Position numbers and translations under genes: made by a program. 64,000 nucleotides of DNA. Source: Parvicella tangerina (lineage in GTDB: Bacteria > Bacteroidota > Bacteroidia > Flavobacteriales_D > Parvicellaceae). The stretch spans positions 186,001 to 250,000 of the forward strand of contig NZ_OU015584.1 of NCBI RefSeq assembly GCF_907165195.1, written 5' to 3'. The notes beneath the pieces were generated by a model. The model was not told the origin of the DNA, did no database searches, and saw only the letters and a list, made by a program, of their open reading frames with translations. Below are positions 29,925 through 35,302 of this stretch, piece after piece (the stretch's first letter is position 1; each line of letters starts with the position of its first letter).

Positions 29925-30392
29925 TTACATCCCATGACTGTTCAACAGCGCCTCTACATCCTTAATTAATGCTGATTGGTCATGATCAAAAGAAATACCT
30001 TGCCAGTTGGGTTCTTCAGAGAGTGAAAATGAATGTTCATTGCTCATGTTGAGTTGCAGCATGAACTTCGTTTGCTCCAACCATCTTTTGGCTTTGGTTT
30101 TCTTGTCTGCTGCTAATTCAACCTTAGCGTATTCAAGGAATAATTTTGCTAGATCGTTGAGATGATCATTCGTGAAATTTCGCGCTTCGAAGAATGCCTG
30201 CAACTCACCTTCTGGCAATTGCAAGAAGACGTCAATATCAATATTCAGTTCTTCTTTCAATGTTTGCGTAGTATGTTCTGAAGCAGTACCGATTTGTCCT
30301 TTGCTTTTCAGACTAAAGAAGGTATCCAGCATTTTGGTCAGTACCTTACCCAATTGCTCAATTTGATCCTTTATGAGGTCACGTCTTTTCAT
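29925..30392 (-). CDS. Conserved hypothetical helical protein
   Basis: 155 residues beginning MKRRDLIKDQIEQLGKVLTK. It appears helical and acidic in its second half and has no membrane segment or signal. The overall pattern (an N-terminal IEQL...LGKVL helix, then a long helical body) resembles a Bacteroidota family of unknown function, possibly DUF6483; that is a guess. It starts 3 nt after the small membrane protein gene and closes the six-gene run. Confidence 0.65.
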   Translation of the reverse strand: MKRRDLIKDQIEQLGKVLTKMLDTFFSLKSKGQIGTASEHTTQTLKEELNIDIDVFLQLPEGELQAFFEARNFTNDHLNDLAKLFLEYAKVELAADKKTKAKRWLEQTKFMLQLNMSNEHSFSLSEEPNWQGISFDHDQSALIKDVEALLNSHGM

Positions 30393-30395
30393 GGT

Positions 30396-30731
30396 CTAAA
30401 TCGATATTCCGCCCAAACAGGTTCCGAAGCCAATGATTAACATAAAAATAGATGTGATCAGTTGGTAGTTTCCTTGTGATCTGAACTTAGCGTTACTATG
30501 AAACCGCCAGATGAAACCCACTATCAATCCAATAATGAAATGAGCCCCGACTGCTAGAATCATGAAAATTCCGAAACCTAAAACGACTGCTTCACCCTTT
30601 GCTCCAAAGCCAACCAATGCTCTCAGCAGGATACTATAAGTTAACATAATAATCAGATTGATTAAAAAGATTTTTGAAAAGGAGACATCATCCTCTGGAG
30701 GTTGGTCACTATCGATTAGATCTTCATTCAT
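30396..30731 (-). CDS. Small membrane protein beside the radical SAM gene
   Basis: 111 residues with three hydrophobic segments (about 21-43, 46-70 and 85-108). It starts with an ATG overlapping the stop of the radical SAM gene by 4 nt, a sign of tight coupling. No catalytic motif was recognised. Given its place it may anchor or assist the radical SAM enzyme or the Lgt-like protein, but this is only inference. Confidence 0.7.
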   Translation of the reverse strand: MNEDLIDSDQPPEDDVSFSKIFLINLIIMLTYSILLRALVGFGAKGEAVVLGFGIFMILAVGAHFIIGLIVGFIWRFHSNAKFRSQGNYQLITSIFMLIIGFGTCLGGISI

Positions 30732-32128
30732 ATAAAGCTATTTTTCCTGAGTGATTCAAGCTTCTTTTCCATCCCTTTACGATAAAATAAATTCATAGTT
30801 TCGAAGGGAATGATTTGCCCCTTTTCATTGACAATGTGAACACAAGATTTTTTAATTGCCCTTACGTCAAAATCATAGGCGTCCATAAAGTTCATGATAA
30901 TTATCCTGAAGAGGTTATTATACCCTAAGTCTGGCGCAGATACGGACGGCAAGCAACAGAGTAATTGATTCATTTCTTTCGTGCTGAGCTCAGGTGAATT
31001 TCCTGTGCTAAATAATGCCAGTGCATGTTGGTGCAGTTCTGTATCTTGTTCATAAACTATGGTGTTTTTACCATTGTTGAGAAGTAATTCTGGGTCCACA
31101 TAACGTGTCATTGGGATTACATCATTGTTTATTTTAAGTGCATACGCCATGATTAAAGCATCTGGGTTACATGGTACTGGAATAAGATCATTGCTATTAA
31201 AAATAGGAGATTGTTCCAGAATTAGTCGCCTGACCTCCGAGTTGGTAATCCGGTCTTTTGAAGGGTCAAAATTTGCAAGCCTACCGCTAATGGATGTGGG
31301 TTGAAAGGTTACGCCTCGTACACTTTTTTGTTGGAGAGCGAAATCAATTATACTTCCGATTTCTCCTTCATTTAGCCCTTTTTGAAGAGTAACCACCAGC
31401 GTTGTACTAAGGTCAAGTTCATTCAAATTGTCAAGGGCTTCTTTTCTGATGTTCGATAGATCTGCTCCTCTCATTTGCTGAAGAACTTCAGGGTCCAGAG
31501 AATCAAATTGAAGGTAGATTTCAAAGTCTGGCATATAACTCGCAAGTCGTTGGACAAAAGCCTTGTCTTTAGCAATTTTGATTCCGTTTGTATTGACCAT
31601 TAAATGTTTGATCGGTTGCATTTTTGCGTAGTCCAGAATTTCGAAGAAATCAGGGTGTATTGTTGGTTCCCCTCCGCTTAGTTGAACAACATCAGGCTCT
31701 CCTTCGCTTCTGACAATCGAATCGATCATCCCTTTTATCTCATCTAAAGAACGATGACGACCATGTGTCGGAGAGGAGCTGGCGTAACATGTCGGACAGG
31801 TTAAATTACAGCGGTCAGTGACTTCAACCAAAGTTAAACACGAGTGTTGCTCATGATCGGTGCACAAGCCACAATCATATGGACAACCATATTTTACAGG
31901 CGTATGAGGCTTAATTGGATATTCCGAAGCTTTATTGTAGTTTCTAATCTCTTTATAGAAGTCAATATCATCTGCTATGATCGTCTTCTGAAAGCCATGT
32001 TCTTTGCAGTGTTTAAGCATGAAGACTTTGTTGTCTTCAAAAACAATCTTGGCACTAATTTGCTTGTGACACTCTACACAAAGTGAGATGGTGTGATCAT
32101 AGTATATGTAATTCTTATTGGTCAACAA
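30728..32128 (-). CDS. Cysteine-rich radical SAM enzyme, tetraether-synthase (Tes/Mss)-like
   Basis: 466 residues. The radical SAM cluster motif CX3CX2C is C107, C111 and C114 (DRCNLTCPTCY), and SGGEPT (151-156) is the SAM-binding block. Upstream lie C17, C20 and C41, with HG after C41 (a rubredoxin-like pattern), and C82, C86, C89 and C97 (GCPYDCGLC), typical of the COG1964 family. Further cysteines come late (LLCCLPS, KKSCVHI). Known relatives include archaeal tetraether synthase (MJ0619) and bacterial enzymes that join lipid tails. It overlaps the Lgt-like gene by 14 nt and the small membrane protein by 4 nt. The substrate is unknown; a lipid is inferred from family and context. Confidence 0.82.
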   Translation of the reverse strand: MLTNKNYIYYDHTISLCVECHKQISAKIVFEDNKVFMLKHCKEHGFQKTIIADDIDFYKEIRNYNKASEYPIKPHTPVKYGCPYDCGLCTDHEQHSCLTLVEVTDRCNLTCPTCYASSSPTHGRHRSLDEIKGMIDSIVRSEGEPDVVQLSGGEPTIHPDFFEILDYAKMQPIKHLMVNTNGIKIAKDKAFVQRLASYMPDFEIYLQFDSLDPEVLQQMRGADLSNIRKEALDNLNELDLSTTLVVTLQKGLNEGEIGSIIDFALQQKSVRGVTFQPTSISGRLANFDPSKDRITNSEVRRLILEQSPIFNSNDLIPVPCNPDALIMAYALKINNDVIPMTRYVDPELLLNNGKNTIVYEQDTELHQHALALFSTGNSPELSTKEMNQLLCCLPSVSAPDLGYNNLFRIIIMNFMDAYDFDVRAIKKSCVHIVNEKGQIIPFETMNLFYRKGMEKKLESLRKNSFI

Positions 32129-32867
32129 CAGGTTTACGTTTGATCAAAAATACAAAGAAATAATAGGTAAGTCCAATGATGCATGCAATTTGGATAGTAC
32201 TTAACCCAGAGTCCCAGAAAAATACTGGCTTGATGTATTCCAATAGAAACCTAAAGACTAGATAAGCGATCATGAAAAGTTTAAACAGTAGCCCATTTCG
32301 TAAACGGATCTTTTTGGAAATTCCATAAAGGATCGAGGCCAGAACCAATAGAAATATGATTTCATAAAGAGCAACAGGATGTCTGTGCAAACCATCTCCC
32401 AGATCCATTCCGAGAAAAAAGTGGGTTTCTACTCCATAAGTCATTTCGTAAATGCCATTGCTGAAGCAACCAATACGACCAATACTCATCCCCAAAATGA
32501 TCGGAAAAACAAAGATATCTCCAGAATTTTTCTTTTCATGGATCAGTAATTTAACGAGCTCAACACTAAATAGACCTCCAAGTAAGCCTCCCACAATCGT
32601 TTTGGTTGCAAAAAAGTAGAGAAACAGATGTTTTGAGTTAGCAAGGGCATTAGGATCCTCTAAACCTCCTACTAACCTACTCCCTAAAAAGGCACCCAAT
32701 GTTGCACCAATTATAATAAGGAAACGATTGGCTTTTGAAATGGGGTCTTTAGTTTTTTTTCGGAGGAAAATGTAAAAACGAAAAGCAGTAAAAAAGGCCA
32801 ACAATTCAAAAATCAGATGAGCACTGACTTTGTATGAGCCATATCCGAATTCTATTGGGAAAGTCAT
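32115..32867 (-). CDS. Lgt-like membrane transferase (second copy)
   Basis: 250 residues with about seven membrane segments. It keeps family landmarks: TIVGGLLGGLFSVE (90-103), GRIGCFSNG (130-138) and RHPVALYE (162-169), then FRFLLEYIKP near 205. The usual signature GR-x-G-N is altered to GRIGC, as in short Lgt-like paralogues. The housekeeping lgt is at 15456. This one lies in an operon with the cysteine-rich radical SAM enzyme, so its acceptor or donor lipid may differ. It starts 16 nt after the nucleoside transporter stop. Confidence 0.82.
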   Translation of the reverse strand: MTFPIEFGYGSYKVSAHLIFELLAFFTAFRFYIFLRKKTKDPISKANRFLIIIGATLGAFLGSRLVGGLEDPNALANSKHLFLYFFATKTIVGGLLGGLFSVELVKLLIHEKKNSGDIFVFPIILGMSIGRIGCFSNGIYEMTYGVETHFFLGMDLGDGLHRHPVALYEIIFLLVLASILYGISKKIRLRNGLLFKLFMIAYLVFRFLLEYIKPVFFWDSGLSTIQIACIIGLTYYFFVFLIKRKPVVDQ

Positions 32868-32883
32868 GATTGAAGTAATTGCG

Positions 32884-34710
32884 CTACATCGTCATACCAA
32901 CCACCACAGCGGTCAACAAACAAGCAATCGTTCCACCAATCAAAGCCCTAACCCCGAGTTGAGATAATAAACCTTTTCTGGAAGGAACCAACGCTCCAAT
33001 TCCTCCAATTTGAATACCAATAGAAGCAATGTTTGCGAAACCACAAAGCATGTAGGTAGACATGATGATCGATTTTTCATTGAGCATTCCTGCATTCTTC
33101 ATCTCGCCAAGCCTTGGGTAAGCCACAAACTCATTCAAAATGGTTTTTTGGCCAAGTAGTTCGCCCACATTCACACAATCCACCCAATCAACACCCATCA
33201 TCCAAACGATCGGAGAACAGGCATACCCTAGCAAAAATTGAAATGAGAGTTCCTTGTAAGATGTGTTTGAAGCGATCCAATCGTTAATTCCACCAAAACT
33301 TCCCACCCATCCGAGAAGTCCATTTGCCAAAGCCATCATGGCGATGAAAACTAACAACATGGCGCCAACATTTACAGCTAATTTCAAACCGTCTGTTGTC
33401 CCATTCGTTATAGCTTCTAAAGCATTTACACCGATTTTGTCTTTGGAAATCTCAAGCCTCTGGTTGATTTTTTCCGTTTCTGGAACTAATATCTTAGCAG
33501 CGACAATGGCAGCTGGGGCAGAGATAATACTTGCGGTTAGTAAGTGCTTCGCAAAAAAGGCACGTTCTGCGGGATCATCACCACCCAAAAAACCAATGTA
33601 AGCCGCCAATACACCTCCTGCAATCGTAGCCATACCGCCAGTCATCAAACACATTAGTTCAGAGCGTGTCATCTTACTTAAAAATGGTTTTACGAGTAAG
33701 GGAGATTCCGTTTGTCCAAGGAATACGTTCCCTGCTGCAGCTAAACTTTCTGCACCCGATAAATTCATGAACTTCTTCATTAACCATGCAAAAGCATAAA
33801 CAACCTTCTGCAGTATGCCCCAATAGTAGAGCAAGCTCATTAATGCAGAGAAAAAGATAATTGTGGGAAGAACCTTGATCGCAAATGTCAACAGCGGTCC
33901 CTGCACCTCATCAGTTCCCATCTGCTTAAACAGAAAGTTAATACCGTAATCCGTATAGCCAATAAGTGTCACGAATGCCTGAGAAACATAATCAAACCCC
34001 GCTTCTACCAATGGGAATTTTAGAACTAACAAAGCAATAACCAGCTGTAGCCCTACACCCATCCCAACTAGTTTCCAGTCAATGGCCTTGCGATCCATAC
34101 TAAAAACCCATGCAATAGCTATCAGGAAAATCATTCCTAGCATTCCGCGCAAAATTGACATGAGAGAAAATCCACCTTGATGAACTTCTTCTCTAGCCAG
34201 ATGAAAAGTTCCTACTTGATCAAGTTGTAGTACCAATTCTTTATCCGTGTGGGATAAAACCGTAGCATAATGCTTTTTCTGCGCTAGCTTCAATCCATCT
34301 TGACCTACAGATGCCTGTTCCTTTGAAGTAGAATAGAAAAACATTTTAGGACTACCTGTAGAATCAGTTGTCAATTCAACCGAGTCAATTGAAGCATGTG
34401 CGTCTCTCTGTAAATTATCATAAGAGAACCAGATCGTATCCGCTGAAACTTTCCATGTTCCCTTAACCATTTCTCCCGCAGGAAAAGCATTTGTACTGAA
34501 GGTCACCTCATTTTCTCCATAGTTCAGGCTAATCGAGTACTGTGTAGAGTCATCGGTATAGTTTTTTGTAGAAAGATCAAAAGAGGTTACCAACCACTTT
34601 CCCTTCAGTTCTTCTTCGGGAGATTTTTGTTCCTCACCGCATGAGTTGAGCGTAATTAAACCGATTAATACGAAAAGCGTAATGAACCATGATTTGCTTG
34701 ATCTCCCCAT
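32884..34710 (-). CDS. Lipoprotein-domain/NupC-type nucleoside transporter fusion
   Basis: 608 residues from ATG 34710 (MGRSSKSWFITLFVLIGLI); the upstream frame would overlap the BFN gene. The signal-like segment ends in LNSC, a lipobox, and residues 30-185 form a soluble beta-rich domain (GKWLVTSFDLSTKN, then VSADTIWFSYDN) resembling small lipocalin-like domains. Residues 190-605 are a concentrative nucleoside transporter of the NupC/CNT type (MTGGMATIAGGVLAAYIGFL, ITNGTTDGLKLAVNVGAM, NEFVAYPRL). The protein would import nucleosides with sodium or protons, and its periplasmic domain may capture ligand. It follows the BFN gene by 10 nt. Confidence 0.85.
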   Translation of the reverse strand: MGRSSKSWFITLFVLIGLITLNSCGEEQKSPEEELKGKWLVTSFDLSTKNYTDDSTQYSISLNYGENEVTFSTNAFPAGEMVKGTWKVSADTIWFSYDNLQRDAHASIDSVELTTDSTGSPKMFFYSTSKEQASVGQDGLKLAQKKHYATVLSHTDKELVLQLDQVGTFHLAREEVHQGGFSLMSILRGMLGMIFLIAIAWVFSMDRKAIDWKLVGMGVGLQLVIALLVLKFPLVEAGFDYVSQAFVTLIGYTDYGINFLFKQMGTDEVQGPLLTFAIKVLPTIIFFSALMSLLYYWGILQKVVYAFAWLMKKFMNLSGAESLAAAGNVFLGQTESPLLVKPFLSKMTRSELMCLMTGGMATIAGGVLAAYIGFLGGDDPAERAFFAKHLLTASIISAPAAIVAAKILVPETEKINQRLEISKDKIGVNALEAITNGTTDGLKLAVNVGAMLLVFIAMMALANGLLGWVGSFGGINDWIASNTSYKELSFQFLLGYACSPIVWMMGVDWVDCVNVGELLGQKTILNEFVAYPRLGEMKNAGMLNEKSIIMSTYMLCGFANIASIGIQIGGIGALVPSRKGLLSQLGVRALIGGTIACLLTAVVVGMTM

Positions 34711-34720
34711 TACCAATAAG

Positions 34721-35302
34721 TTAGTTGCTATTTCTGCGATTGATCTCATCCCTGATCTTCGAGGCGGTTTCGTAATCCTCATTCTCAATAGCGGTGTTTA
34801 ACTGTTGATTCAACTCATCAAGGGTAAACCTTTTCGGACTTTGTTCTTCTGGCTCGTCTGGAATTGTTTCTTCTGGTTGCCCTTCGAAATCGTCTTCAAG
34901 AAGAATGCCTGCACTGCCCAATACAAATTCATAAGTGTAGATCGGACAGTTAAAACGAACTGCTAGAGCAATGGCATCAGAAGTTCTGGAATCAATTTCA
35001 ACTTCAGTTCCCTCTTTTTCGCAGATCAATTTTGAGAAAAATATCCCCTCTACGAGATTGTAAATGATCACCTCCGAAATGTGAATGTTAAATTCCTCAG
35101 CAAAATTCTTAAAAAGATCATGGGTTAAAGGTCTGCTGGGAGTCATCTTCTCCAACTCAATCGCTATAGCCTGTGCCTCAAAACCACCAATGATGATCGG
35201 TAGCCTTCTTTTCCCATTTGACTCGCCTAGCACGAGAGCATAAGCTCCTGATTGTGTTTGGCTGTAGGAAAGACCTACAATGTCAAGCTTTATTTTTTCC
35301 AT
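34721..35302 (-). CDS. BFN-domain protein with C-terminal UVR motif
   Basis: 193 residues from ATG 35302 (MEKIKLDIVGLSYSQTQSG). Residues 1-140 form the BFN domain (DUF151) with GGFEAQAIAIELEKM and DSRTSDAIALAVRFNCPIY. After an acidic proline-rich linker, residues 158-190 hold a UVR motif (LDELNQQLNTAIENEDYETA). BFN proteins have reported nuclease activity and the UVR motif is a protein-binding element of UvrB/ClpC. The cellular role is not settled. It heads the run of minus-strand genes down to 29925. Confidence 0.87.
   Translation of the reverse strand: MEKIKLDIVGLSYSQTQSGAYALVLGESNGKRRLPIIIGGFEAQAIAIELEKMTPSRPLTHDLFKNFAEEFNIHISEVIIYNLVEGIFFSKLICEKEGTEVEIDSRTSDAIALAVRFNCPIYTYEFVLGSAGILLEDDFEGQPEETIPDEPEEQSPKRFTLDELNQQLNTAIENEDYETASKIRDEINRRNSN

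Follow-up and report, generated by a model that had tools for sequence, protein, structure and literature searches.

Lgt, the lipoprotein enzyme, binds phospholipid and has its active site on the periplasmic side of the membrane (PMC4728403). The residues listed as essential in Escherichia coli Lgt are Y26, H103, R143, N146, and R239 (PMC13251419), with the requirement for Y26, H103, and N146 described in two studies (PMC4728403, PMC13251419). A second Lgt of Mycobacterium smegmatis, MSMEG_5408, has been reported to carry both Y26H and N146C (PMC13251419). Among the radical S-adenosylmethionine (rSAM) enzymes, Tes (GDGT-MAS; MJ0619, PDB 7TOL) has a four-part architecture consisting of a rubredoxin site, an N-cluster motif, a radical-SAM core, and a C-terminal domain, while Mss is an rSAM enzyme that couples fatty-acid tails and is reported to have the catalytic architecture of Tes (PMC13274423), and TrsS (NF045646) is a radical-SAM (seleno)protein. 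Relatives of these enzymes are encoded side by side in a 64,000-nucleotide stretch of the Parvicella tangerina genome (contig NZ_OU015584.1, positions 186,001 to 250,000; hereafter the window, the numbering of which is used throughout). The genes in question encode a 250-amino acid Lgt-like membrane protein (32115-32867, minus strand), a 466-amino acid rSAM enzyme of the Tes/TrsS type with a TTG start (30728-32128, minus strand), and a small membrane protein of 111 amino acids (30396-30731, minus strand). A preliminary description of this DNA had listed three overlapping open reading frames (ORFs), and all three are indeed present on the minus strand, the Lgt-like and rSAM genes overlapping by 14 nucleotides and the rSAM and small-protein genes by 4 nucleotides. 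We found no paper describing this three-part system in the open-access literature searched, and the same literature yielded no useful papers on an operon of Lgt and radical-SAM genes or on MSMEG_5408. Both enzymes are variants of known families, passing only some of the respective membership tests, and together with the small protein they probably make up a system, so far undescribed, for attaching a lipid to a cysteine of the small protein or remodelling one there.

A co-inherited trio and the cysteine tail of its small protein

The strongest clue to the system is the C-terminal cysteine of the small protein, which had gone unremarked in the preliminary description. What that description had called a three-helix membrane protein is a product with three hydrophobic segments, the last of which is preceded by Lys/Arg and ends in a C-terminal Cys (C105, codon 30417-30419, minus strand; tail ...LIIGFGTCLGGISI), the proposed lipid-acceptor or reaction site. 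No Pfam family scored above its cut-off for this protein or for the other small proteins. In an alignment of 12 small proteins of the window's type, C105 is present in all 12 and little is common to them apart from M1, Y32, G101, and C105, while in the other type of small protein the Cys is the sole invariant column. We also applied a motif test to small ORFs, which asked for a hydrophobic C-terminal segment, Lys/Arg before it, a Gly nearby, and a Cys near the end. The motif was found in 71 of 78 adjacent ORFs and in 3 of 2817 other ORFs at the same loci, a ratio that is indicative because the control ORFs include non-genes, such that it is the absolute frequency that matters. One of the three motif-bearing non-adjacent ORFs is itself an additional small-protein copy, in the array at L064. 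The possibility that the small ORFs are spurious is ruled out by a median ratio of nonsynonymous to synonymous substitution rates (dN/dS) of 0.12, which is indicative since dS is near saturation, and, in 43 of 78 loci, by a 4-nucleotide overlap between the small ORF and the rSAM gene.

The surroundings of the Cys are similarly constrained. In 81 of 91 small proteins, a spacing of 17 separates the Cys from the last Lys/Arg, and in the same 91 proteins positions -3 and -2 are mostly Leu and Gly, and position -1 is Ile or Val in 74 and Gly, Ala, or Ser in only 5, so that the tail usually reads LG[IV]C, followed mostly by 5-7 residues. In canonical lipoprotein-like N-termini encoded at these loci, the matching stretch is 13-19 residues long, with Ser/Ala at -1. 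By spacing and pattern, the tail of the small protein appears to imitate a lipoprotein signal peptide, and the charge pattern, with Lys/Arg before the segment, would by the positive-inside rule orient the last helix so that its Cys-bearing end is periplasmic. Each locus encodes 1-4 copies of the small protein, and the window-type small proteins are only 15-30% identical to that of the window, all of them keeping G101 and C105, compared with ~70% identity for the rSAM enzyme. Such fast divergence together with multiple copies per locus is as expected of substrates. It is likely, in our judgment, that the Cys is the site at which the reaction takes place.

The three genes also travel together. 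We collected 80 loci of close rSAM relatives, among which the organism-labelled records are all from Bacteroidota. At least one motif-bearing small ORF was present within 1.3 kb downstream of the rSAM gene in every locus (80/80), and a GRxGCF-type Lgt-like ORF was recognized upstream by its pattern in 76 of the 80, some of the remainder being contig ends. Among 396 Bacteroidota genomes, the Lgt-like profile matched 33 at ≥232 bits and everything else at ≤144 bits; the Lgt-like gene was found in these 33 genomes, the rSAM gene in 34, and both in 32 (Fisher p = 1e-43, uncorrected for relatedness), with the co-occurrence extending over about twelve families. The two rSAM genomes lacking the Lgt-like gene carry Tes-like proteins. 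In two genomes (G330 and G093), the Lgt-like and rSAM genes are located on different contigs, and in G093 a small protein ending in LTCGGFFTLS, likewise unlinked, was picked up by a profile search. Loose linkage or a chance operon is ruled out by the co-occurrence across the 396 genomes and by these unlinked cases. We regard it as almost certain that the Lgt-like protein, the rSAM enzyme, and the small protein form one functional system. Of 60 genomes sharing the genus, family, or order of the window, only 3 carry the trio, indicating that the system is patchy and accessory.

An Lgt paralogue and an rSAM enzyme near Tes and TrsS

The Lgt-like protein matches PF01790 at 67 bits (gathering cut-off 24.9) and the equivalog model TIGR00544 at 47.6 bits (cut-off 118.9), thus passing the former and failing the latter. 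In a Foldseek search with its AlphaFold2 model (predicted local distance difference test score, pLDDT, of 92.6), E. coli Lgt (PDB 5AZB) was the sole PDB match below E 0.001 (E 2.4e-7, template-modelling score [TM] 0.63). The protein is a paralogue of the canonical Lgt, which is encoded in the same genome by a separate gene (G000:C1:201510-202523, 200 bits), in agreement with the homology proposed in the preliminary description. The same description had noted a GRIGC signature in place of GRxGN, and this substitution proved to be both real and family-wide. The signature (G130-C134; 32466-32480, minus strand) aligns R131 with E. coli R143 and C134 (codon 32466-32468, minus strand) with N146, and G130, R131, G133, and C134 are invariant across 20 aligned Lgt-like proteins. 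These 20 proteins keep the equivalents of R143, R239, Y235, and E202, and the GG motif likewise has its equivalent, whereas N146 is always Cys, H103 is replaced by a hydrophobic residue (V/I/M/L; V in the window), and Y26 is usually His, as it is in the window protein. As a result, R143 and R239 are kept from the set of five residues essential in E. coli and the other three are replaced. A further difference from E. coli Lgt is that the proposed acceptor helix is C-terminal rather than N-terminal. Since the Y26H/N146C pair reported for MSMEG_5408 is the pattern of the Lgt-like family, that protein may belong to the same GRxGC family, which we regard as a lead.

The rSAM enzyme most closely resembles Tes in overall construction. 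A sequence search against solved structures placed 7TOL first (4e-67; profile 8.6e-130), as did the Foldseek search (TM 0.81, E 2.6e-36), in which the next non-Tes match had an E value of 6.5e-10; residues 355-399 of the structure model are of low confidence. The cysteines pointed out in the preliminary description are real. They comprise a rubredoxin-type site, C17-X2-C20-X20-C41-X2-H44 (31997-32080, minus strand), having a spacing identical to that of Tes (C9X2C12X20C33X2H36) and conserved in 13 of 13 rows of our ligand map; an N-terminal auxiliary cluster of C82, C86, and C89 (GCPYDCGLC; 31862-31885, minus strand), which is conserved with Tes, together with H92; and the invariant radical-SAM cluster C107-X3-C111-X2-C114 (31787-31810, minus strand). 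The rubredoxin, N-cluster (C-X3-C-X2-C plus His), and radical-SAM motifs of Tes are accordingly all found in the window protein.

The C-terminal portion departs from this pattern. Of the Tes C-terminal cysteines, only the equivalent of C429 is kept, with S428 and E443 occupying Tes Cys positions and I432 the position of Tyr459, while M412, the equivalent of the labile Met439, is retained by the window protein although the family as a whole does not conserve it. The C-terminal Cys pattern with Tyr459 and Met439, reported to be completely conserved in Tes, is consequently altered in the window enzyme. Its additional cysteines are C97, C320, C391, and C392. C320 (PVPC; 31169-31171, minus strand) is found in the group formed by TrsS and the Lgt-linked proteins and is absent from the three Tes-type rows, whereas C391, C392, and C429 (30842-30958, minus strand), from their places in the ligand map, probably serve as ligands to a C-terminal auxiliary cluster in rearranged form.

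Curated profiles give a corresponding picture. The Tes model NF045702 scored 289.6 bits against a cut-off of 450, its best stretch covering only residues 13-323, and identity to Tes is ~30%, whereas a Tes-type protein of the same phylum that has no Lgt-like neighbour (L144) reached 493.8 bits and passed. The best-scoring curated model was instead that of TrsS (322.3 bits), which is likewise under its cut-off of 490, and no peptide-maturase rSAM family came near its cut-off in this search. Hence, of the Tes-like enzyme proposed in the preliminary description, the architecture is supported and the membership in Tes is not. TrsS and the window enzyme both have C97 and C320, and in the rSAM tree the TrsS-like proteins are nearest to the Lgt-linked rows, with the Tes-type proteins forming a firm clade (100/99). 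The gene partners differ, since the two TrsS-like loci examined have a methyltransferase gene following and no Lgt-like gene, whereas the window and the 80 related loci have the Lgt-like and small-protein genes in place of an adjacent methyltransferase; from Tes, too, the window enzyme is set apart by these partners. One branch of the tree has all the Lgt-linked rows on the same side, but its support is weak (82/44), and the actinobacterial clade among them is on a long branch; we therefore do not claim monophyly for the Lgt-linked rSAM enzymes. Filing the enzyme as either Tes or TrsS is ruled out by the curated cut-offs and the cysteine map.

Proposed lipidation of the tail cysteine and the competing explanations

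The explanation we favour has the Lgt-like enzyme attaching a lipid to the small protein's C-terminal Cys and the rSAM enzyme modifying or coupling the lipid chain. The small protein would first insert into the membrane such that its last helix starts at a cytoplasmic turn rich in Lys/Arg, crosses to the periplasmic face, and finishes there in a lipobox-like LG[IV]C or GF[GS]xC, no more than about 13 residues separating the Cys from the C-terminus. The Lgt-like enzyme, the site of which should be periplasmic like that of E. coli Lgt, would then recognize this helix as it would a lipoprotein signal peptide and move a glyceride from phospholipid onto the Cys thiol. A bulky residue such as Ile or Val at -1 should not be accepted by LspA, so the protein should escape cleavage and the product would be the whole small protein, lipidated near its C-terminus. 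Either before or after attachment, the Tes-like rSAM enzyme would generate a 5'-deoxyadenosyl radical and functionalize or couple the lipid chain. Judged from sequence and predicted folds, lipidation of the Cys by the Lgt-like enzyme seems on balance probable, and action of the rSAM enzyme upon the lipid chain seems evenly poised; all of the steps taken together make up a tentative proposal that we hold to be somewhat short of probable.

Several features speak for this proposal, namely the conserved, co-inherited unit, the Cys as the main feature common to the small proteins, the Lgt and Tes folds, and the partly retained catalytic residues. A number of points weigh against it. With H103, N146, and Y26 replaced, diacylglyceryl transfer by the Lgt-like enzyme may be lost, and a 2026 paper in mBio describes an M. 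smegmatis Y26H/N146C homologue of presumed low Lgt activity. The lipobox likeness is one of spacing and pattern, and the residue at -1 is not the canonical Gly, Ala, or Ser. The rSAM enzyme is presumably cytoplasmic and the Lgt site is periplasmic, so any substrate common to the two would have to be accessible from either side of the membrane, and the cooperation of both enzymes on one substrate is assumed from their co-occurrence. Moreover, 6 of the 80 loci encode an adjacent Cys-less paralogue of the small protein, each beside a Cys-bearing copy, and one genome (G076) has an Lgt-like gene with neither partner nearby. A more elaborate form of the proposal, which we consider conceivable though rather doubtful, holds that the tail is an uncleaved C-terminal mirror of the N-terminal lipobox, lipidated by a dedicated Lgt paralogue, after which the Tes-family rSAM enzyme would forge a C-C or C-S bond on the lipid to give a radical-modified, possibly membrane-spanning anchor.

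The main rival explanation is that the rSAM and Lgt-like enzymes make an unusual free lipid, for instance one that is tail-joined or glycerol-extended, with the small protein acting as a scaffold or regulatory subunit and its Cys having a structural or redox role. Tes, which joins lipid tails, is the closest characterized relative of the rSAM enzyme, and the bacterial enzyme Mss is reported with the Tes architecture (PMC13274423). This explanation also draws on the phospholipid binding of Lgt (PMC4728403) and on an ICMT/PEMT-family methyltransferase in the cluster at three distant loci. However, it leaves unexplained why a Cys in a lipobox-like frame should be almost the sole common feature of the small proteins, as well as their copy number of 1-4 and their faster divergence than the enzymes, and the rSAM enzyme itself fails the Tes model and lacks the Tes C-terminal ligand pattern. 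For these reasons a free lipid as the product appears unlikely to us. The preliminary description had inferred a system that builds an unusual membrane lipid or a lipid-linked anchor. Because the rSAM enzyme falls outside the Tes cut-off and Cys pattern, the former is now only one of several options, whereas the Cys tail, the multiple copies per locus, and the lipobox-like spacing indicate a protein-linked lipid at least as well.

The second rival is that the rSAM enzyme acts on the small protein itself, introducing a thioether or another radical crosslink at or near the Cys, with the Lgt-like protein as a membrane partner or transfer helper. An rSAM gene accompanied by a short ORF that evolves fast and is sometimes present in several copies is what is seen in clusters of the type that makes ribosomally synthesized and post-translationally modified peptides (RiPPs); the Cys is strongly conserved, and the second-best fold matches of the rSAM enzyme are the peptide-modifying SuiB and SkfB. 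Nonetheless, no peptide rSAM comes anywhere near as close as Tes (Foldseek 6.5e-10 versus 2.6e-36), no peptide-maturase family is near its cut-off, and the Cys is predicted at the periplasmic helix end, away from a cytoplasmic rSAM enzyme, all of which make peptide maturation distinctly unlikely. We consider improbable a thiol relay, in which a disulfide would link the small protein's Cys to C134 of the Lgt-like protein, or an acyl, glyceryl, or sulfur group would be handed from one thiol to the other, with a sulfur-bearing lipid coming from the rSAM enzyme. C134 is invariant exactly at the N146 position beside R143, the Tes intermediate is a bond of a substrate carbon to a cluster sulfur (PMC9433317), and the C-terminal cysteines of the rSAM family are rearranged relative to Tes, but the N146C of a Leptospira Lgt has been proposed to form a stabilizing intramolecular disulfide (PMC13251419). 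Lastly, that the Lgt-like gene is an ordinary second lipoprotein Lgt with incidental linkage can be rejected as highly improbable despite a PF01790 score above the gathering cut-off and about 1,300 genomes reported with two lgt copies (PMC13251419), given the canonical Lgt elsewhere in the genome, the clean score gap, the near-perfect co-occurrence with the rSAM enzyme, and the replacement of N146 and H103 throughout the family.

If lipidation of the tail Cys with radical modification of the lipid is correct, lipoprotein lipidation has a counterpart at the C-terminus in bacteria, and Tes-type radical chemistry has a second natural role, in Flavobacteria that are culturable and genetically testable, Flavobacterium glycines and F. 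aquaticum being two carriers of the trio. Even should the product be a free lipid, the rSAM family would probably be included in loose surveys of bacterial Tes homologues (E < 1e-50, identity > 20%; PMC8941075), which are used to infer the sources of membrane-spanning lipids and palaeotemperature proxies (PMC8941075). The family's C-terminal cysteines and its gene partners are unlike those of Tes, which matters for such surveys. GRxGC Lgt paralogues, which by themselves resemble defective lipoprotein enzymes, also gain a context from the trio.

Distant versions, variant loci, and flanking genes

The same three parts recur at more remote loci within the phylum (L145, L147-L151, and L060/L061), where the small proteins do not align to the close set; examples of their tails are ...LLFGACMVGIGG and ...LLSGGMCIFLPQPL. 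In three of these loci (L147 3285-5126, L148 4383-6588, and L149 4366-6617), the ICMT/PEMT-family membrane methyltransferase mentioned above and a DUF4395-type protein are encoded between the rSAM and Lgt-like genes. Trios are likewise present in Actinomycetota, on plasmids of Mycobacterium branderi and M. avium and in Nonomuraea, with the Lgt-like signature GR[IL]GC and unrelated-looking small proteins that end in G[ILVY]CTG[LI]NP. The actinobacterial rSAM enzymes (L157 and L159 from the Mycobacterium plasmids; L155 from Nonomuraea) are without the N-terminal auxiliary-cluster cysteines, and the Lgt-like and GxCTGxNP partners are kept. Some of the actinobacterial small proteins have Pro-rich N-termini.

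The Cys-less small paralogues all lie directly beside Cys-bearing copies, as in L133 (2976-3182, ending SLGIFG), L125, L120, L132, L072, and L079, and they possibly have a second, non-substrate role. The lone Lgt-like gene of G076 (L190, 3153-3998) has a GRVGCF signature and is located between clpC-like and rhodanese-like genes in a genome in which no rSAM gene was detected; it is perhaps a relic. Many IMG/VR contigs (L196-L275) encode distant relatives matching the rubredoxin-to-radical-SAM region of Tes-type enzymes. A phage origin of the trio was rejected, as no match was present in 50,697 phage records and the IMG/VR relatives are only 23-32% identical.

In the window, a 155-amino acid ORF (29925-30392, minus strand) with a weak, sub-cut-off Pfam match begins 3 nucleotides downstream of the small-protein gene and is a possible fourth gene of the operon. 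We found no relative of it in the 19 related genomes in which one was looked for, which places it outside the conserved trio. The trio is flanked downstream by a transketolase-family subunit gene on the other strand and upstream by a nucleoside transporter gene. The latter ORF (32884-34788, minus strand) opens with an N-terminus resembling that of a lipoprotein (LITLNSCGEEQ), and a weak match of lipocalin type precedes its CNT transporter domain, making it an apparent lipocalin-transporter fusion.

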